A stretch of 52,989 bases of DNA from a virus. Below, piece after piece: positions 3,182-49,687 of this stretch. Every line of letters starts with the position of its first letter. The stretch's first letter is position 1. The DNA is taken from IMG/VR virus record IMGVR_UViG_3300003321_000545, positions 1-52,989 of that record, one strand, 5' to 3'. A model generated the notes under the pieces. It was given only the letters and a program-made list of their open reading frames with translations, searched no databases and was not told where the DNA came from. Made by a program: the position numbers and the translations under genes.

Positions 3182-4105
3182 ATGGCAAGACCAATTACCA
3201 TGTATTTTGCGCCGTCTAATACAACGGCATTGTTGAGTACAACAGCCACTACAGGTGGCGCATCAACATCAATTGGTCTTACCAATCCTTATCCATACAT
3301 ATTTAATAATTTAGCACGTACAATTACTATTACATCCTCAGATAACGTTTCTGCTGTAAATATAACCATTACGGGAAAAGACATTTGGGGAAATACAATT
3401 TCTGAAACAAGAGTTGGACCTAACAACACAACTGTAACATCTACTAATCAATATAATCAAATTACAAATATTGCTTGTGATGCTGCTTTAACAAATTTCA
3501 GTTTTGGATCTGGGTCAACAGGCACATTTATATGGGCAAAATTAAATCAATTTAATAATTCAGCTTATACAACAATTCAAGCTGATGTGACAGGAACAAT
3601 CAATTATTCAGTTAATCAAACAGCAGATACATTTGATTATTTTCAAAACAATACGCTGATTCCTCAATATCAATATCCAAGAGCGACTCTTTTAGGAAAC
3701 AATCCAATTAATGTCGCAAATGCAAGCACAACAGCAACATTAACAGTTCCTTCAACTGTGGGATTACAAGTGGGTCAATTATTTTCTATACAAGGTGCTT
3801 CTGGTGCATCCGGATTAACAGCTGCCCAAACAAATGGAACATTTGCGATTGTATCAATTGCTAGTGCTACGACACTTACTTATATAGCTGTCGCAAATGG
3901 TAATGGTGTTGCTGGTGGTGGTGCACTTGCTTATTTATATGTTCCAAATTTACCAGTTTCTTATGCTGTCGTTGCTGCATTAACAGCTGCAACAACCAGT
4001 CAAATCTATAATTTGAATAGTGCTGCTTATGCATTGCAAGGAATTGTCAATTCTTCAACAAGTGGATCGTTATTATTAACCTATTTGCAACAGGGAGTTG
4101 TGTAA
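3182..4105 (+). CDS. Beta-rich virion protein with one FCCH-like domain, paralogue of upstream gene
   Basis: The 307-residue protein is related to the preceding gene. Residues about 40-130 carry the same 'ARTITITSSDNVS-VNITI-GKDIWGN-I-E---GPNNTTV' pattern. One FCCH-like module follows (about 175-250), beginning GNNPINVAN and ending GVAGGGALAY. It probably forms part of the head surface or head-tail region, but its exact place is unknown. The start has a ribosome site (AAGGATATATAGAT), and its stop overlaps the start of the next gene (TAATG). The pair looks like a duplication in which the upstream copy gained a second module. Confidence 0.6.
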   Translation: MARPITMYFAPSNTTALLSTTATTGGASTSIGLTNPYPYIFNNLARTITITSSDNVSAVNITITGKDIWGNTISETRVGPNNTTVTSTNQYNQITNIACDAALTNFSFGSGSTGTFIWAKLNQFNNSAYTTIQADVTGTINYSVNQTADTFDYFQNNTLIPQYQYPRATLLGNNPINVANASTTATLTVPSTVGLQVGQLFSIQGASGASGLTAAQTNGTFAIVSIASATTLTYIAVANGNGVAGGGALAYLYVPNLPVSYAVVAALTAATTSQIYNLNSAAYALQGIVNSSTSGSLLLTYLQQGVV

Positions 4106-4296
4106 TGGCCAATGATAAATTCATACAAAAAATGCATATGAAAAAAGGAGCATTACATAAACAACTAGGGATTCCTATGGGAAAGAAAATACCAGAAGGA
4201 AAATTGGAAAAAGCGACTCATAGTAAAAATCCAACTTTAAGGAAGAGAGCTGTTTTAGCTGAAACATTAAAAGGTTTGTCTAAGCGTAAGAAGTAA
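4105..4296 (+). CDS. Small basic phage protein
   Basis: This 63-residue protein is highly basic. It has the run MKKGALHKQLGIPMGKKIP near the start and ends in LKGLSKRKK. The 'KKGALH-QLGIP' motif recurs in small conserved proteins of many large phages and in some bacteria, with no proven role. Its charge and its place among virion genes suggest contact with packaged DNA or the head interior, but that is inference. Its start overlaps the stop of the upstream gene, so the two are probably translationally coupled. Confidence 0.6.
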   Translation: MANDKFIQKMHMKKGALHKQLGIPMGKKIPEGKLEKATHSKNPTLRKRAVLAETLKGLSKRKK

Positions 4297-24326: not shown

Positions 24327-24980
24327 ATGGATAAAATAAGTACTAAAAATGTCAAAGAGCCAACAAAATTAGCGGTAAAAAAATCTAAAAGAGGACCTTA
24401 TAAAAAAAGATGGCGTTTTCATCTTATGGAAAATGAAGTTCACATGATATTAGAAGCCTGTGAAAAATCATATTTTCCTTTGAGAAACAAATTGCTTATC
24501 TTAATGGCATATAATCATGGTTTGAGAGCATCTGAACTCTGTGCGTTGAAATGGCATAATGTAGATATAGCTAACCGACGCATCTATATAACAAGAATGA
24601 AGAATGGGAAAAGCGGGTATCATCCTATAGAAAGTGATTTAGAGTACAATCTTTTCAAAGAACATAAAGCCATAAGAGATAAACAAGTTGTAAAAGACCC
24701 TTTTGTGTTTATGTCTGAGAGAAGACGACCAATCACCCCTTATAGTCCAAGATGTTTTAACGCTTTATGTGAACAATTGGGAAATCTAGCTGGATTAGAT
24801 TTTAAATTTACACCTCATATGTTGCGTCATGGTATTGCGACTTGGTTAGTAGAAAACGATATGAATATCGTTAAAGTCAGCAGATTTATGGGACATTCTA
24901 AACTTTCATCTACGGAAAGATATTTACACATAAGTGCAAAACAATATCAGGGCTATATGAAAGGATCTATATTTGCATGA
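24327..24980 (+). CDS. Tyrosine recombinase, FimB/FimE size class
   Basis: All residues of the catalytic set are visible in 217 residues: Arg67 in GLRASEL, Lys92 or Lys95 in RMKNGKSG, His164 and Arg167 in HMLRHG, His190 in MGHSK and the nucleophile Tyr199 in ERYLH. The protein has only about 30 basic residues before the catalytic domain and no core-binding (SAM-like) domain. This matches FimB/FimE-type invertases rather than lambda-type integrases of 350 or more residues. The reaction would be site-specific strand exchange through a 3'-phosphotyrosine. It could integrate the phage, resolve genomes or invert a segment; no att sites could be fixed by eye. Confidence 0.8.
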   Translation: MDKISTKNVKEPTKLAVKKSKRGPYKKRWRFHLMENEVHMILEACEKSYFPLRNKLLILMAYNHGLRASELCALKWHNVDIANRRIYITRMKNGKSGYHPIESDLEYNLFKEHKAIRDKQVVKDPFVFMSERRRPITPYSPRCFNALCEQLGNLAGLDFKFTPHMLRHGIATWLVENDMNIVKVSRFMGHSKLSSTERYLHISAKQYQGYMKGSIFA

Positions 24981-26582: not shown

Positions 26583-27863
26583 CTATGCAGCTTTTACATC
26601 GACAGATTTACTATCATTTTGTGGCTCTTTTTTAAGTTGATTCAAACGCACATCATCTTTAATTTTTAGGTACTGTTCATTTGTAATTTTTGTAAGAGAA
26701 TCAACACAAAATTCTTTCTGGTAGTATTTAATTAACTCCTGATCGTTTCCTAATACATTTTTTAGATCTTCAATTTGAACATCTAACAATCCGTCGTTTT
26801 TTACCTGCAAAAAGTCTTTCATTTCCAAAAACTTTTGTTTAAGAATATGGCTTGGTAAGGATGAAACCTTGGTCCAACTATGCGTATTAAAGAAGTTCTC
26901 AATGAGTTCAGACTTTGCTTTAACTTCAGCTGTTGCTCTACCCGGATAATATTTTTGCATTAATCCGTCTATTTCCTCACACCAAATCTCTCTTTGTTTT
27001 TGTTCTGTTGGCCAATCATCATATTCTAGATCAGGGTATAGATCTTGAGAATTAGATTGATTTAAAGAATCGTAATGCGTTCCTTTTAAGTTGAGATGCT
27101 TAAAGTGAGGCTCAAACCTTTCAAAGACGCTCAATATCTTGTTGATATCTGCCCCTTTGTGAGGTGTAAAATCGATTTCATCACCGTTTAGAAAGTTATA
27201 TCTATCCTTTTCAACAAGTGCCCTATTAATTATCTTTCCATTTTCACGGTGTTTAATCATCTCTATAAGAAGAGAGGGTTCGTAACCAAGTTCCTTTTCT
27301 GTTGCCATTTTGGTCCCATTGGTAATTAATTCCTTCTTTCCAGTAGCGTCATTAACCTGATAATCATAAATAGAAGAGGCCCTTCCACATAAAATGACAT
27401 GGACCTTTGAGGAGAGATATTTATCTGTGAATTGTGCCCATACATCTTTAATTGTTGCCCAATGTTGAAATTCAAGTTTTTGTAGGGGCGATTTTCTTTG
27501 ATTTTTGCGAGATTCATTAAGTTTATCTATATAAGACTTTTGAACATCCCTCCAAACATGTGTAATGGAATCTATAATGACGACAGAGCACTCTTTTTCT
27601 GCCTCTGCCATAAATTTCATGAGATCTGCTAGGGATCTTGATTCGTAACATAAGACTTCTATACCGGCTGCCTTAAAAAGAGGCAAAACATAACTTAGAG
27701 CTGGCTCAGTATCAAAGAATGCAATTGGTTTTTTACATTCTGCAAATTTGTGTAATCCAATTGCCATACAAGATGCTGTAAAGGTTTTACCACTACCTGC
27801 ATCTCCGTATATTCCAACTTTTCCAAATGCTGTCTGATTATCAGCTTTTTTTAAGAACGACAT
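26583..27863 (-). CDS. RecA-core ATPase, Sak4-like recombination protein
   Basis: The 426-residue protein has a Walker A motif GDAGSGKT (residues 20-27), a FFDTEPAL segment as in RecA-core ATPases near 49-56 and a Walker B strand VVIIDS (94-99). An asparagine- or glutamate-tipped strand (VHVILCGR) follows near 160. Sak4-like phage ATPases work with single-strand binding and annealing in recombination or replication. This protein has an extra C-terminal part of about 200 residues, mostly helical, which is longer than in small Sak4 proteins. The start has an AGGAG site. It is the largest product of the leftward operon and so may be its main function. Confidence 0.7.
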   Translation of the reverse strand: MSFLKKADNQTAFGKVGIYGDAGSGKTFTASCMAIGLHKFAECKKPIAFFDTEPALSYVLPLFKAAGIEVLCYESRSLADLMKFMAEAEKECSVVIIDSITHVWRDVQKSYIDKLNESRKNQRKSPLQKLEFQHWATIKDVWAQFTDKYLSSKVHVILCGRASSIYDYQVNDATGKKELITNGTKMATEKELGYEPSLLIEMIKHRENGKIINRALVEKDRYNFLNGDEIDFTPHKGADINKILSVFERFEPHFKHLNLKGTHYDSLNQSNSQDLYPDLEYDDWPTEQKQREIWCEEIDGLMQKYYPGRATAEVKAKSELIENFFNTHSWTKVSSLPSHILKQKFLEMKDFLQVKNDGLLDVQIEDLKNVLGNDQELIKYYQKEFCVDSLTKITNEQYLKIKDDVRLNQLKKEPQNDSKSVDVKAA

Positions 27864-28523: not shown

Positions 28524-28790
28524 TCAGTTTATGGTTGCTGACTTGCAGGTTGCTATTTCTTGGCAAATCATATCAAGACAATTCTCTGCCTGTCTTTTAG
28601 TGGGGAATATACTATGAGCTTCATTGTTTGGTAGAACAATTGTAAACCCATCATCCCAATTTGTTTGCAAAATTTTATCAACATAATATCTTGATATTTC
28701 TGTAATTTGTTTATCAACTGTACGATTGTTGTTTATATTCCTTTCAACAACCCTATATACTTTTCCATATTCCTTGTCATATTCAGCCAT
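28524..28790 (-). CDS. First gene of the leftward early operon, hypothetical
   Basis: The 88-residue protein starts after GGAGATAAGAAA, a strong site, about 50 bases downstream of a sigma-70-like promoter (28840-28867). It has a 'GFTIVLPNNEAHSIFPTKRQAENCLDMI' segment (key FPTKRQAE), a pattern like the small single-domain proteins that open many phage early operons. It may be expressed first after infection. No enzymatic motif is visible. Confidence 0.5.
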   Translation of the reverse strand: MAEYDKEYGKVYRVVERNINNNRTVDKQITEISRYYVDKILQTNWDDGFTIVLPNNEAHSIFPTKRQAENCLDMICQEIATCKSATIN

Positions 28791-28839
28791 TTTCTTATCT
28801 CCAAGTTAATAAGTCATATTTTTTAGCTTACAACTCTAG

Positions 28840-28867
28840 GATATACATAATTTCACATGTTCGTCAA
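28840..28867 (-). promoter_or_regulatory. Promoter of the leftward early operon
   Basis: On the minus strand a TTGACG (-35, 28867-28862) is followed after 16 bases by TATATC (-10, 28845-28840). The spacer ends in AAATTATG, as in the toxin-antitoxin promoter at 48887. It lies directly upstream of the gene at 28524. Confidence 0.6.
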
Positions 28868-28929
28868 TAGTTTTATTTGTTTTATAAGTTATATTAGTTT
28901 TTAATCAATTTTATCTATATAAAATAAAA

Positions 28930-28952
28930 CCCTAGGCCATATAGACCTAGGG
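28930..28952 (-). terminator. Leftward terminator in the control region
   Basis: CCCTAGG (28930-28936) and CCTAGGG (28946-28952) form a perfect 7-bp stem with a 9-base loop. On the minus strand the stem is followed by TTTTATTTTAT. It would stop transcription that escapes the first terminator at 29145 before it reaches the early promoter. Confidence 0.55.
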
Positions 28953-29138
28953 ATACATATAAGGAAGGTAACATAATAACACTATATAAAAAGTGGAGAT
29001 AGCTCTCGATCAGCATTATTTCATAAAATTTTATCTATTTCAAGATAATTGAACTTGTAATTGTTGAATGCTTCGGGCATAGTCTGTTTCATGTGAATTT
29101 TTAGGAAAGGATAGAAATCTAAAGTTTCCACTAGAAAT

Positions 29139-29228
29139 GAAAAAGGCACCTCCGAAGAGATGCCTCGTTCACTTGGAAAACTACTAATACCCACCACAAC
29201 AACGACAAGTAATAATAGTTCTAAAACT
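29139..29228 (-). ncRNA. Candidate 90-nt phage small RNA
   Basis: A consensus-like promoter (TTGACT, 17-base spacer, TATAAA at 29263-29235) predicts a start near 29228. Transcription would end at a strong terminator at 29164-29140, which gives an RNA of about 90 nt. The 5' half can form an 8-bp stem (AACUAUUA with UAGUAGUU, one G-U pair) that closes a U/G-rich loop, and the 3' half is the terminator hairpin with a UUCG loop. No start codon with a ribosome site lies inside, so it is unlikely to be translated. It sits between the leftward operon and the replication gene, where a regulator is expected. The function is unknown. Confidence 0.6.
29140..29164 (-). terminator. Rho-independent terminator of the small RNA
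   Basis: On the minus strand GGCATCTC (29164-29157) pairs with GAGGTGCC (29152-29145), with one G-T pair, around a TTCG tetraloop. The stem is followed directly by TTTTT (29144-29140). This is a classical intrinsic terminator with the most stable loop type. Confidence 0.75.
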
Positions 29229-29234
29229 AATTGG

Positions 29235-29263
29235 TTTATAACAAATCCTATGTGGTGAGTCAA
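29235..29263 (-). promoter_or_regulatory. Strong promoter of the small RNA
   Basis: On the minus strand TTGACT (-35, 29263-29258) is followed by a 17-base spacer and TATAAA (-10, 29240-29235). The match to the sigma-70 consensus is 5/6 at -35 and 5/6 at -10 with ideal spacing, among the best in the window. Confidence 0.7.
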
Positions 29264-29311
29264 GTATTTTTCCAAGAAAAATTAATAATAATTTTTTAAG
29301 GAGAAAAAACA

Positions 29312-29986
29312 ATGTGTTACAAGACATTAAGGCAAATAAACCAAGTTCATCGCAGCCTTCTTTCACCAAAATCGAAAACAATTTTATCTATTATTTGCCA
29401 ATACGGCGACTGGAATACCGGTAAGGGTTCTCGATTATCAAATTCAAAGTTAGCAGAAATGAGCGGTTATTCTATACGAACAGTTGAAAGAGCGAGACAA
29501 GAACTTAAAGGATTAAGAATGATCTTAATAATCTCTAAACACTGTATGAAAAGAAGGTGGGGAGAAGAAGTTATGATTAACTTTGCCGTTCTTCATCAAT
29601 TTGTTGAACAATCAAAGATTTTGTATCAGAAGGATCGAGAAAAGAAATATCGCCATGAAGTTATCCACAAAAACTGTGGAAGAATCTGTGGAAAACAAGA
29701 TGAAAAAGTAGAGAGTACCGACAAAATGACGGTAGAGAGTACCGACAAAATGACGGACTATACATACACCGATACATCTATAAATACAGTTGGACAACAA
29801 CAACCTGTGGAAAAATTAGGGGATATGGAGGTAACCCAAAATTTTAACATCGAAGATTATATCAGTCCATGCGACATAAACAGACAACCTAATATGGATG
29901 TTGTAAAGGCTTTAACAATTTTGCTAAATGGAAAGGAGGACGGCCTAGTGTTTGGTAAAGCAGAAGAATTCTTATTCAACTTCTAA
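29312..29986 (+). CDS. O-like replication initiator
   Basis: The 224-residue protein has an N-terminal winged helix typical of phage replication proteins ('LSPKSKTILSIICQYGDWN...SRLSNSKLAEMSGYSIRTVERARQELKGL', given by key parts). Its middle holds two perfect copies of VESTDKMT, encoded by two 24-bp DNA repeats. Like lambda O, the protein would bind an origin in its own gene and recruit the host helicase. Three DnaA boxes support this. The C-terminal part (about 165-224) is acidic and could contact the helicase or loader. No partner helicase or DnaC-like gene is seen. The start has AAGGAGAAAAAAC. Confidence 0.7.
   Translation: MCYKTLRQINQVHRSLLSPKSKTILSIICQYGDWNTGKGSRLSNSKLAEMSGYSIRTVERARQELKGLRMILIISKHCMKRRWGEEVMINFAVLHQFVEQSKILYQKDREKKYRHEVIHKNCGRICGKQDEKVESTDKMTVESTDKMTDYTYTDTSINTVGQQQPVEKLGDMEVTQNFNIEDYISPCDINRQPNMDVVKALTILLNGKEDGLVFGKAEEFLFNF
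29661..29814 (+). other. Replication origin inside the initiator gene
   Basis: Three DnaA boxes of type TTWTNCACA lie here: TTATCCACA at 29661-29669 on the plus strand, and the minus-strand TTTTCCACA at 29687-29695 and 29806-29814. Between them are two perfect 24-bp tandem repeats (29708-29731 and 29732-29755). The arrangement of initiator iterons and DnaA boxes inside the initiator gene is that of lambda-type and plasmid-type origins. An AT-rich stretch follows downstream at 30000-30130. Confidence 0.65.
29708..29755 (+). repeat. Two perfect 24-bp tandem repeats (iteron-like)
   Basis: The unit begins GTAGAGAGTACCGACAAAAT and continues to GACG, and occurs twice without a mismatch. The repeats encode VESTDKMT twice in frame. 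They probably serve as binding sites for the initiator rather than for protein function. Confidence 0.75.
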
Positions 29987-30133: not shown

Positions 30134-30349
30134 TTGACAAATAAAAAAACCAAGAAAAGAAGGAAACAAAATATTATTTCTTCATACACAGCAGCTAGAT
30201 TGCTTCATATGACCAAACAAACTTTTATAAATCACTTAGAAGATGGTATATTTCCATTTCCTGCCATGAAACTTGGAAATGAATATAAGTTCCGCCGTGA
30301 AGATATAGAAAAGTATATAGAAAAATCATTTAAGGTTATAAAAAAATAA
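30134..30349 (+). CDS. Excisionase-like helix-turn-helix protein
   Basis: The 71-residue basic protein has the MerR/excisionase-type winged helix-turn-helix pattern: 'YTAARLLHMTKQTFINHLEDGIFPFPAMKLGNEYKFRREDIEKYI' (shortened to its key marks AARLL, TKQTF, DGIFPF, YKFRREDI). Such proteins bind att sites or promoters. The start is a TTG at 30134, because an in-frame stop lies 18 bases upstream and no ATG fits; AAGAGG lies 11 bases before it. It could be the directionality factor for the recombinase at 24327, which is 6 kb away. Confidence 0.6.
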   Translation: MTNKKTKKRRKQNIISSYTAARLLHMTKQTFINHLEDGIFPFPAMKLGNEYKFRREDIEKYIEKSFKVIKK

Positions 30350-37620: not shown

Positions 37621-37806
37621 TTATTGTTTTCTTTCCTCAATCATAAACCATTTATCATCATCAATATGACGAACCATTCCACATCCTTGACACTTGATTC
37701 CTACCCATGCTTTCTCTTCAGGCCATTTGCCAAAAACATCACATGTTACAAAATTCCATCTTAATTTATGAGCAATAAAATGAAAAAACCTACGAACTAT
37801 ATTCAT
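37621..37806 (-). CDS. Small zinc-finger-like protein
   Basis: The 61-residue protein has 'FFHFIAHKLRWNF-TCDVF' at the start and a CxxC pair in 'GIKCQGCGMVRHID'. The pattern HKLR plus IKCxxCG is seen in small phage zinc proteins. With Cys22 it may hold a metal ion, though only three cysteines are certain. It overlaps the upstream gene by four bases. Confidence 0.5.
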   Translation of the reverse strand: MNIVRRFFHFIAHKLRWNFVTCDVFGKWPEEKAWVGIKCQGCGMVRHIDDDKWFMIEERKQ

Positions 37807-38036
37807 TTATCATTCTCTCTGGTGCAAACATTAATACCCGCAACCTTTGACCACTCAATAATTACATGCTCAATGTTTTTTAATAATAATTCAGCTGAAG
37901 ATACTGGATAATATTGTAATAATCTTCCTTCAGGAATATCATGATTTATCCAAGCAGCCTCGCCATGTATCATAATATTAGTTCCACTTGGAATTATCTT
38001 TAAAGTTAAAGCTTTATCCTTTATACAATTTTTCAT
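37803..38036 (-). CDS. Hypothetical protein, 77 residues
   Basis: The product is compact, with beta strands ('LTLKIIPSGTNIMIHGEAAWINHDIP', in part) and a C-terminal helix ('SAELLLKNIEHVIIEWSKVAGI'). It follows the RelB-like gene by 13 bases, the place where a toxin partner would normally be. It does not look like RelE or another known toxin, so it is recorded as unknown. Confidence 0.45.
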   Translation of the reverse strand: MKNCIKDKALTLKIIPSGTNIMIHGEAAWINHDIPEGRLLQYYPVSSAELLLKNIEHVIIEWSKVAGINVCTRENDK

Positions 38037-38049
38037 TATAATTATTTTA

Positions 38050-38238
38050 TTAACCTTCTCTATATAAAATCCACCTTATTTCAAAAGGTAGCTTTTCTTG
38101 TATAATTATCTGATTATATAAAAGTTCTATAGCTTTTGATGGTGATAAACCAACATCTTCTAAAATCTTTTCAGCAGCTTCTTTTAATTCATAGTTAATT
38201 CTGACACGAATTGTACCATTTTTGTTAGTTTTTGTCAC
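38050..38238 (-). CDS. RelB/DinJ-like ribbon-helix-helix antitoxin or regulator
   Basis: The 62-residue protein has the RelB/DinJ pattern: 'GTIRVRINYELKEAAEKILEDVGLSPSKAIELLYNQIIIQEKLPFEI' (marks: IRVRI strand, KEAAEKIL, LGLS-like VGLSPSKAI, LPFEI). GTG at 38238 is preferred, because AAAGGGGACAAAAT stands before it; an ATG at 38271 would add 11 residues but lacks a ribosome site. The family binds DNA as dimers and neutralises RelE/YafQ toxins. No toxin is seen beside it, so it may act only as a repressor of the divergent promoter upstream. Confidence 0.65.
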   Translation of the reverse strand: MTKTNKNGTIRVRINYELKEAAEKILEDVGLSPSKAIELLYNQIIIQEKLPFEIRWILYREG

Positions 38239-38298
38239 ATTTTGTCCCCTTTCTCCGGTATAATTGTCCATTTTGTGTAAAAAATCAACAAAAAAGTA

Positions 38299-46809: not shown

Positions 46810-47490
46810 ATGAAAAAGTTAGTTAGCAAAATATGTTTAATTATGACAGCGTTAATTATACCTGTTAAAGCGAATACAGGATTTTATATAGGTGCCGCAA
46901 TTGGTGGCGCAAATTTAAATGGTAAAAACCAATTATCTCTTCTAAGAAATAACAATGTATCTTCATTTACAACCCAAATGAGCAATACGGATGTGCATGT
47001 AGAAGCATTAGCTGGATATGGTCAATTTGTTGATAGTATATGGTTGGGCATTGAATCACATGTTGGAGTATCACCATTGGAAGCACAAGCATTTCTTGAC
47101 GCTTCTGGTATTAACAGTCGTCAAAAATTAAATGTTAAATCATATCATAAAGCGGGTATGGATTTTCATATAGGTTATGCATTACATCCAAAATCCAAAG
47201 CATATATTAAATTGGGTGGTGAAGTACGCAAATTTAGTCATGATTTCAATGCAACAAATCAACATGGTGATCCAGTTGCAAATCACAATAAAAGTTATTA
47301 TAGCGGTGCTTTTGTGTCTGGTCTTGGAGTCGAAACGGAAGTTAGTCCGCAGATTACCATAAGATCTGAATATAAGGTTGCAATACACCCAGAAAAATCA
47401 TTAGCTACAAGTATAAACACTAGCAAAACAACCTTGAAAACAAGACCCCATGTGCATCATTTTATGATTTCATTTATTCATAAAATATAA
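46810..47490 (+). CDS. Outer-membrane beta-barrel protein (OmpA-like, 8-strand type)
   Basis: The 226-residue protein has a signal peptide (MKKLVSKICLIMTALIIPVKA, cleaved after Ala21). It then starts with GFYIGAAIGGA, the first strand of bacterial outer-membrane beta-barrels, and continues with alternating strands to a C-terminal 'VHHFMISFIHKI', where an aromatic-ending strand is expected. The barrel would sit in the host outer membrane. As a phage-encoded host-surface protein it may change receptor exposure or surface properties of the infected cell. It lies between virion genes and is ended by a strong terminator, so it forms its own unit. Confidence 0.7.
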   Translation: MKKLVSKICLIMTALIIPVKANTGFYIGAAIGGANLNGKNQLSLLRNNNVSSFTTQMSNTDVHVEALAGYGQFVDSIWLGIESHVGVSPLEAQAFLDASGINSRQKLNVKSYHKAGMDFHIGYALHPKSKAYIKLGGEVRKFSHDFNATNQHGDPVANHNKSYYSGAFVSGLGVETEVSPQITIRSEYKVAIHPEKSLATSINTSKTTLKTRPHVHHFMISFIHKI

Positions 47491-48178: not shown

Positions 48179-48574
48179 CTACATATAAATGCTTAAAACA
48201 TGGTCATAATCTAATATCTTTTTATCTCTCGTAAATAAGGTGGCATTTAAAACTCGAGCACTAGCAACAATAATTTGATCGCAAGGATCTCTGTGAAAAT
48301 TACCTGGTAAATTGTTAGATTCAATGAGGATTTCAGGTGTACAATTTAATAATGTAAATCCAGATTTCCTTAATGATTCATTCGTCCAGGTATCTAAATC
48401 AAAATTATATTCAATCCGATTTTTAATTTTTAATAGTGATAATTCCCATATGCTCAGAGGTGATATATATATTTTATCGAATTCTTGTAATCTTTCTTTT
48501 GAGCTGTCATCTATTGTTGGATCATCTACCATCAACCAAAAAAATACATGTGTATCTAATAGTGCTTTAGTCAT
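48179..48574 (-). CDS. vapC: PIN-domain toxin (VapC-like)
   Basis: The 131-residue protein has the PIN-domain acidic set: Asp7 in LLDTHVFFWL, Glu44 in SIWELSLLK, Asp96/Asp99 in FHRDPCDQIIVA and Asp117 in FTRDKKI. VapC-type toxins cut tRNA or rRNA with the help of metal ions. The motif order and length match the family. The gene overlaps the upstream antitoxin by 8 bases, the usual VapBC arrangement. In a phage it may kill or arrest the host if the phage is lost, or exclude rivals. Confidence 0.85.
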   Translation of the reverse strand: MTKALLDTHVFFWLMVDDPTIDDSSKERLQEFDKIYISPLSIWELSLLKIKNRIEYNFDLDTWTNESLRKSGFTLLNCTPEILIESNNLPGNFHRDPCDQIIVASARVLNATLFTRDKKILDYDHVLSIYM

Positions 48575-48845
48575 TTTTTTTCTTCATAAAGGGTTCAAAA
48601 TTTTCCCAATCTCCATTGCATTCAAAATCTTCAACCGGCTCTATAATATCACCCAACTGACGAGCAGTTCCTTTCATACAACCAAATGCTCTCTCCCATT
48701 TGTTTTTTGTTTGTGAAACTAAAGAAGTTAACTTCAAAATAGGATGTCCATGTTTAGTAATTATGATTTCTTCTCCATTATCAGAGATCATTTTCATTAA
48801 TTTAGCCGTATTATTTTGAAAATCTGTCGCTGTGATATGAACCAT
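48567..48845 (-). CDS. Phd-type antitoxin of VapC
   Basis: The 92-residue protein has a Phd/YefM N-terminal domain ('DFQNNTAKLMKMI--NGEEIIITKHGHPILKLTSL') and a C-terminal tail 'GCMKGTARQLGDIIEPVEDFE' that matches the toxin-binding tails of VapB-type antitoxins ('G---G---GDI--P'). It precedes the toxin gene in the same operon. The start follows AGGAAGGGAGTATAAAA. It would repress its own promoter with the toxin as co-repressor. Confidence 0.75.
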   Translation of the reverse strand: MVHITATDFQNNTAKLMKMISDNGEEIIITKHGHPILKLTSLVSQTKNKWERAFGCMKGTARQLGDIIEPVEDFECNGDWENFEPFMKKKND

Positions 48846-49264: not shown

Positions 49265-49687
49265 ATGCAATCACATTTTTTTGATTTGCCTACAAATGAT
49301 ATTATTCGTGAAGTATTAGGCGAAAATCACCCTGTTCCTGTTGGGTGGCAAATTCTTATTCAAAACTTTAATTATGGCGATAATTTTATAAAAGAAGATG
49401 GGGAAATTTCTCTTCTTGAAAGGCCAGATATGACAAAAGAAAGCGATAACTACAGATTAAGTGTAGGTCGCATTCTAATGATTGGGAGTGCCGCATTTAA
49501 ACACGAATTTAAATTTAAAGATTGGGATGTAATACCAAAAGTTGGTGATTATGTCACATTTTATAAATATGAAGGAAGCTTTGCAAAATATAAAAATGTG
49601 GAATGCCAATGGCTGCAAGATGCACATATCATAGCAATTATCCCAGATCCAGCAACTTGTAATTATCACTCTTCAGTGGGGAATTAG
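49265..49687 (+). CDS. GroES-like co-chaperonin
   Basis: The 140-residue protein resembles GroES folds in layout. It has VPVGWQILIQ (first strand, as 'PLHDRVIV'), a flexible loop with 'GEISLLERPDMTKESDNYR', 'LSVGRILMIG' (as 'SAGGIVL--G'), 'VIPKVGDYVTFYKYEGSF' (as 'VKVGD-V-F--Y-G') and 'LQDAHIIAII' (as 'ILREEDILAVI'). GroES closes GroEL during folding, and phage versions such as T4 gp31 help fold the capsid protein. The scaffold gene follows, and a GroEL gene lies 1.7 kb further on, which fits. It is longer than GroES (97 residues), mainly because of its N-terminus and an extra mid-loop. The identification is based on pattern only. Confidence 0.6.
   Translation: MQSHFFDLPTNDIIREVLGENHPVPVGWQILIQNFNYGDNFIKEDGEISLLERPDMTKESDNYRLSVGRILMIGSAAFKHEFKFKDWDVIPKVGDYVTFYKYEGSFAKYKNVECQWLQDAHIIAIIPDPATCNYHSSVGN

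Follow-up and report, generated by a model that had tools for sequence, protein, structure and literature searches.

A tandem pair of predicted small RNA units beside the replication initiator gene of three related phages

Early control in phages is usually read through repressor proteins. What is to be made of an early control region in which a small RNA gene stands out and no repressor gene is seen? The region studied here lies between a leftward operon and a replication gene in the window, the whole stretch of 52,989 nucleotides of viral DNA that was analysed (Table 1). The preliminary description of this locus had proposed a single small RNA with a loop that could act as an antisense seed, at a place where a switch regulator is expected. 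It had placed the locus correctly, between the operon and the replication gene, and had rightly noted that no CI- or Cro-type gene is visible, as no HTH_3 repressor domain was found in the window.

The sequence gives good support for the predicted small RNA gene (RNA1), which has both a promoter (P1) and a terminator (T1) to itself. P1 ranked 15th among 105,924 sites scored in a weight-matrix scan of the whole window, with a matrix of approximate sigma-70 frequencies, which may differ from those of the host. The T1 stem and its TTTTT tail span 29166..29139 on the minus strand, and, as originally described, promoter and terminator stand about 90 nt apart with no gene between them. Two minus-strand ORFs, both with TTG starts, cross RNA1 (29021-29275 and 29184-29381); both start codons precede the point where transcription from P1 would begin, so RNA1 cannot encode either ORF. 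On the plus strand opposite RNA1 there were no ORFs of at least 50 aa. The predicted fold of RNA1 had an energy of -31.7 kcal/mol (z = -4.64), and none of 200 shuffled sequences folded as well. Taken without the terminator, the first hairpin was modest (z about -2.2), with -12.6 kcal/mol on its own strand compared to -3.6 kcal/mol on the opposite strand. Rfam covariance models gave no match in the window at the gathering score, and a tRNA/tmRNA scan found none. An exact search with the RNA1 loop sequence returned two unrelated matches, and the stretch GUUUUAGAACUA of RNA1, which resembles a Cas9 repeat, is missing from RNA1 of the related phages, so that the likeness was dropped as chance.

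Table 1. Features of the control region and its surroundings in the window.
Feature	Coordinates	Strand	Remarks
AAA_24 / Sak4-like recombinase gene	26583..27863	-	leftward operon
Leftward operon gene 1	28524..28790	-	88 aa, unknown; counterparts L004 4198-4461, L026 661-906
P3, leftward operon promoter	28838..28867	-	TTGACG-18-TATCCT; window rank 7
RNA2	28926..29008	-	second tandem small RNA, ~83 nt; outside the span first described
T2, terminator	28930..28952	-	window's best terminator
P2, RNA2 promoter	29015..29043	-	TTGAAA-17-AATAAT, extended -10 (TATGA); window rank 43
Weak candidate rep-sense promoters	29055..29092	+	TTGTAA-17-CATAGT / TTGAAT-17-TTTCAT; convergent with P1
RNA1	29139..29228	-	small RNA first described, ~90 nt; start inferred ~7 nt past -10 box
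T1, intrinsic terminator	29143..29166	-	TTCG loop; stem GAGGCATCTC-TTCG-GAGGTGCCTT
Inverted repeat, arm b	29172..29185	+	inside RNA1
RNA1 stem-loop 1	29177..29222	-	by folding; about 19 bp including G-U pairs, hexaloop
P1, RNA1 promoter	29235..29263	-	TTGACT-17-TATAAA; A-rich GGAAAAATACTTGA in front
Inverted repeat, arm a	29263..29276	+	at P1 -35, upstream of rep SD
rep	29312..29986	+	replication initiator / helicase-loader-like; HTH_36, DnaD-like
DnaA-box-like sites (three)	29661..29814	.	at 29661, 29687 and 29806, flanking the iterons
Iterons (two, perfect, 24 bp)	29708..29755	+	in rep

RNA1 has a partner. We scanned the entire window for units consisting of a strong promoter followed 40-160 nt on by a strong terminator, and found exactly two in 53 kb, RNA1 (29263..29143) and RNA2 (29043..28930), the latter following immediately on the same strand. 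Dinucleotide-shuffled windows contained a mean of 0.39 units, and a tandem pair arose in 0 of 400.

Protein searches identified only two related phages, IMG/VR contigs 3300005436_000014 (the L004 phage; also L049, G001) and 3300031708_000013 (the L036 phage; also L007, L037, G004), with AAA_24 proteins 67-68% identical. All three phages have the gene order rep / P1-RNA1-T1 / P2-RNA2-T2 / P3-leftward operon, with rep divergent, and the L004 phage has an extra small ORF ahead of its DnaD-like gene. At a promoter threshold slightly lower than that used for the window, RNA1- and RNA2-type units were the sole units in the 13.3 kb (L004 phage) and 9.2 kb (L036 phage) scanned. P1 is alike in all three phages (GAAAAA..CTTG, a 17-bp spacer, TATAA.CC). 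In both relatives P2 has the form TTG..N17 with a TTATG- extended -10, and a TTGAC- promoter occupies the place of P3. The RNA bodies differ in both sequence and length among the three. Conservation of promoter and terminator in relatives had been set beforehand as a test of the preliminary description, and this architecture is kept in both. What stands of the first proposal is a small RNA gene flanked by a dedicated promoter and terminator, but the gene belongs to a tandem pair and the sequence of its body is not kept in the relatives. By sequence criteria, and with conservation resting on three genomes, RNA1 and RNA2 form a conserved tandem of short transcription units.

GenBank phages gave no match to the region or to rep, the layout was absent from more distant AAA_24 phages (Xenorhabdus and others), and the 153-aa neighbour gene, used as query, brought no further phage. 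The promoter pattern, tried as a means of finding relatives, returned 57 loci; a terminator followed only in an already known phage, and the rest were promoter-like matches. A short plus-strand leader ORF was dropped, as on reading it was not conserved. In the L036 phage, RNA1 (1926-1971) has the sequence GUUUCAAGC in three copies, of which two come with ACUUUUC; the copies are a near-inverse of that phage's own -35 region.

On the other side of P1, the -10 box lies about 70 bp upstream of the rep ATG. Analogous iterons, of 22 bp, occur in rep of the L036 and L004 phages, as do DnaA-box-like sites. In the window, the three such sites are the only matches to TTWTCCACA and fall within 160 bp, inside rep. 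Because iterons and DnaA-box-like sites are found there, the origin probably lies within rep, as it does in lambda O.

How could a leftward RNA bear on a rightward gene? An inverted repeat connects the RNA1 body with the P1/rep leader. In each of the three phages the complementarity of arms a and b exceeds chance; the arm sequences differ between phages, and the arms stand about 52-97 bp apart. The a:b duplexes had energies of -26.4, -24.9 and -17.6 kcal/mol, compared to shuffle means of -14.2, -15.8 and -9.6 kcal/mol. The rep-sense leader folded with z between -3.3 and -4.0 in the three phages, and a rep-sense transcript that traversed this segment is predicted to fold into a long stem that stops just short of the rep SD. 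In the window the repeat gave -26.4 on the rep-sense strand and -35.8 on the other; since the rep-sense strand is not consistently the stronger, a DNA operator would account for the repeat equally well. The best plus-strand promoter sites of the region rank only about 500-630 in the window and lie to the left of RNA1, so that a rep mRNA starting from them would cross RNA1. The rep-sense promoter candidate, weak in the window, is still weaker in the L004 phage, and the L036 and L004 phages also have weak sites adjoining rep, which would start transcripts downstream of RNA1. Closure of the SD upon RNA1 binding was considered as well. The unpaired fraction of the SD fell from 0.68 to 0.34 in the window, from 0.33 to 0.29 in the L036 phage and from 0.63 to 0.62 in the L004 phage; as the SD closes in the window and not in the relatives, we claim no specific switch.

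Pairing in trans with phage mRNAs, as an antisense seed might act, was not supported for RNA1. Its pairing with the 60 phage leaders of the window was within shuffle range, and was likewise at chance in both relatives. RNA1 as an antisense RNA to the rep SD or start was at chance in all three phages, as was pairing between RNA1 and RNA2. RNA2 of the window also paired with the 60 phage leaders within shuffle range. In the L004 phage, RNA2 paired with its own left-operon leader at -35.3 kcal/mol, compared to -15.4 +/- 3.2 kcal/mol for shuffled sequences (0 of 500 as good), and this leader ranked first among all leaders for RNA2. The predicted duplex (4022-4049 with 4157-4200, about 20 bp) covers the leader and SD, in an arrangement like that of C4. 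The corresponding pairing was at chance in the window (p about 0.5) and in the L036 phage (p 0.2), and an anti-SD pairing of RNA2 that had been seen by eye in these two did not survive shuffling.

These results favour regulation of rep, through a cis-antisense RNA or convergent transcription, over a switch of the CI type. Our preferred but tentative reading, which falls a little short of probable, is that RNA1 is counter-transcribed across the rep leader, from a promoter convergent with rep transcription, and restrains rep. Transcription from the strong P1 just upstream of rep would make the short leftward RNA1, opposite a leader that rep transcription probably traverses. Pairing with the leader RNA, promoter interference, or both, could then restrain rep and in this way set the level of replication, as for lambda pO/OOP and the counter-transcribed RNAs of plasmids. 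RNA2 would be a companion unit, and in the L004 phage it looks capable of pairing with the left-operon leader; the small RNAs might thus also restrain the neighbouring operon. Conservation of the P1 motif and spacing beside a changing RNA body would be expected of cis-antisense action, in which RNA and target change together.

This arrangement has close parallels. In lambda, OOP is transcribed from pO, a leftward promoter immediately before O that reduces transcription from pR and without which replication suffers (PMC3985674). As here, a short terminated leftward RNA has its promoter just upstream of an iteron-bearing initiator gene (PMC3985674); it lies opposite a transcript running into that gene, as RNA1 probably would. 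OOP is ~77 nt long and RNA1 ~90 nt, and both have an intrinsic terminator (that of RNA1 by sequence prediction). However, OOP is antisense to the 3' end of cII, whereas RNA1 has neither cII nor any other protein gene opposite it, and the locus described here has a second small RNA unit in tandem and no adjoining repressor region. Counter-transcribed plasmid RNAs (CopA of R1, RNAIII of pIP501 and RNAII of pMV158) are similarly stem-loop RNAs from a strong promoter, divergent from the initiator gene, and RNA1, like them, would face what is probably the leader of the mRNA for the initiator; toxin-antitoxin genes and an Xer-like recombinase are further plasmid-like traits. Unlike those systems, this is a phage genome whose origin is probably in the initiator gene, and the rep-sense transcript and its pairing with RNA1 are putative. 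In Bacillus subtilis, too, the initiator gene dnaA has an antisense RNA over its 5' UTR (PMC12112137), although that RNA is chromosomal, concerns another initiator and has no tandem unit.

Could P1 matter more than the RNA it makes? Transcription from P1 near the origin might set topology and block rep transcription, with the RNA as a by-product of interference like that of pO. We consider this unlikely, although the promoter and terminator are conserved and the RNA body is not, and lambda pO does act in this way on pR transcription and on replication (PMC3985674). The strand preference of the first hairpin in the window hints at selection on the RNA itself, a point that is softened by the L036 phage, where the 5' part of RNA1 was no better than shuffles. 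Action of both RNAs in trans on phage or host mRNAs, with RNA2 repressing the leftward operon by pairing, appears rather unlikely. C4 RNA of P1/P7 and CI RNA of P4 pair with a downstream leader and are processed from the operon transcript. RNA2 of the L004 phage resembles them in lying upstream of the operon and in its complementarity to the operon's leader and SD, the top leader for this RNA; it departs from them in that RNA2 has its own promoter and terminator, and has no Rfam match. The chance-level pairing of RNA2 with this leader in the window and in the L036 phage argues against the trans reading, as does the failure of RNA1 to pair with any phage leader beyond chance.

The inverted repeat itself might be an operator, at which some regulator (Rep, or the HTH_17 protein encoded at 30134-30349) would control both P1 and rep, leaving RNA1 mainly as a read-out of the promoter. 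All three phages carry the a:b repeat, which shows no consistent strand asymmetry. In addition, the motif TAGATAAAATT, a possible operator, has three minus-strand copies in 500 bp of the control region (at 28907, 29027 and 29380), compared to one copy elsewhere in the window. We nevertheless regard this explanation as improbable, as the arms vary between phages in both sequence and distance. We judge it very improbable that RNA1 and RNA2 are attenuated leaders of the leftward operon, with an antitermination factor that would carry transcription through T1 and T2 in the manner of lambda 6S RNA at PR'-tR'. The two units are on the same strand as the operon and place two serial terminators upstream of it, but in all three phages the operon has its own strong P3 past T2, and a separate promoter precedes each unit.

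Under the counter-transcript reading, a conserved, gene-free RNA pair at the junction of the initiator gene and the early operon suggests plasmid-type RNA control of replication in phages beyond lambda OOP. The same phages carry Xer-like genes: a short Xer/invertase-like tyrosine recombinase was found in all three (window copy 24327-24980, plus strand, 217 aa). No ParA-type gene was found. A plasmid-like prophage is conceivable. The HTH_3 repressor domain is also absent from the L036 phage, and the L004 phage has one, away from the control region. If these are temperate phages with no CI-type repressor by the early region, RNA1, setting replication at the rep leader as plasmid copy-control RNAs do, and RNA2, setting the recombination operon, might together form an RNA-based switch between lysis and maintenance, which we consider quite unlikely.

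Several other genes of the window phage were recorded. A Phd/YefM antitoxin and PIN-domain toxin pair lies at 48179-48845 (minus strand), and a RelB/DinJ-type antitoxin followed by a 77-aa gene at 37803-38271 (minus strand) may be a second toxin-antitoxin module. An OmpA-like outer-membrane beta-barrel protein is encoded at 46810-47490 (plus strand), near the portal gene, and a weak Cpn10 (GroES-like) match at 49265-49687 (plus strand) is possibly a phage co-chaperonin.
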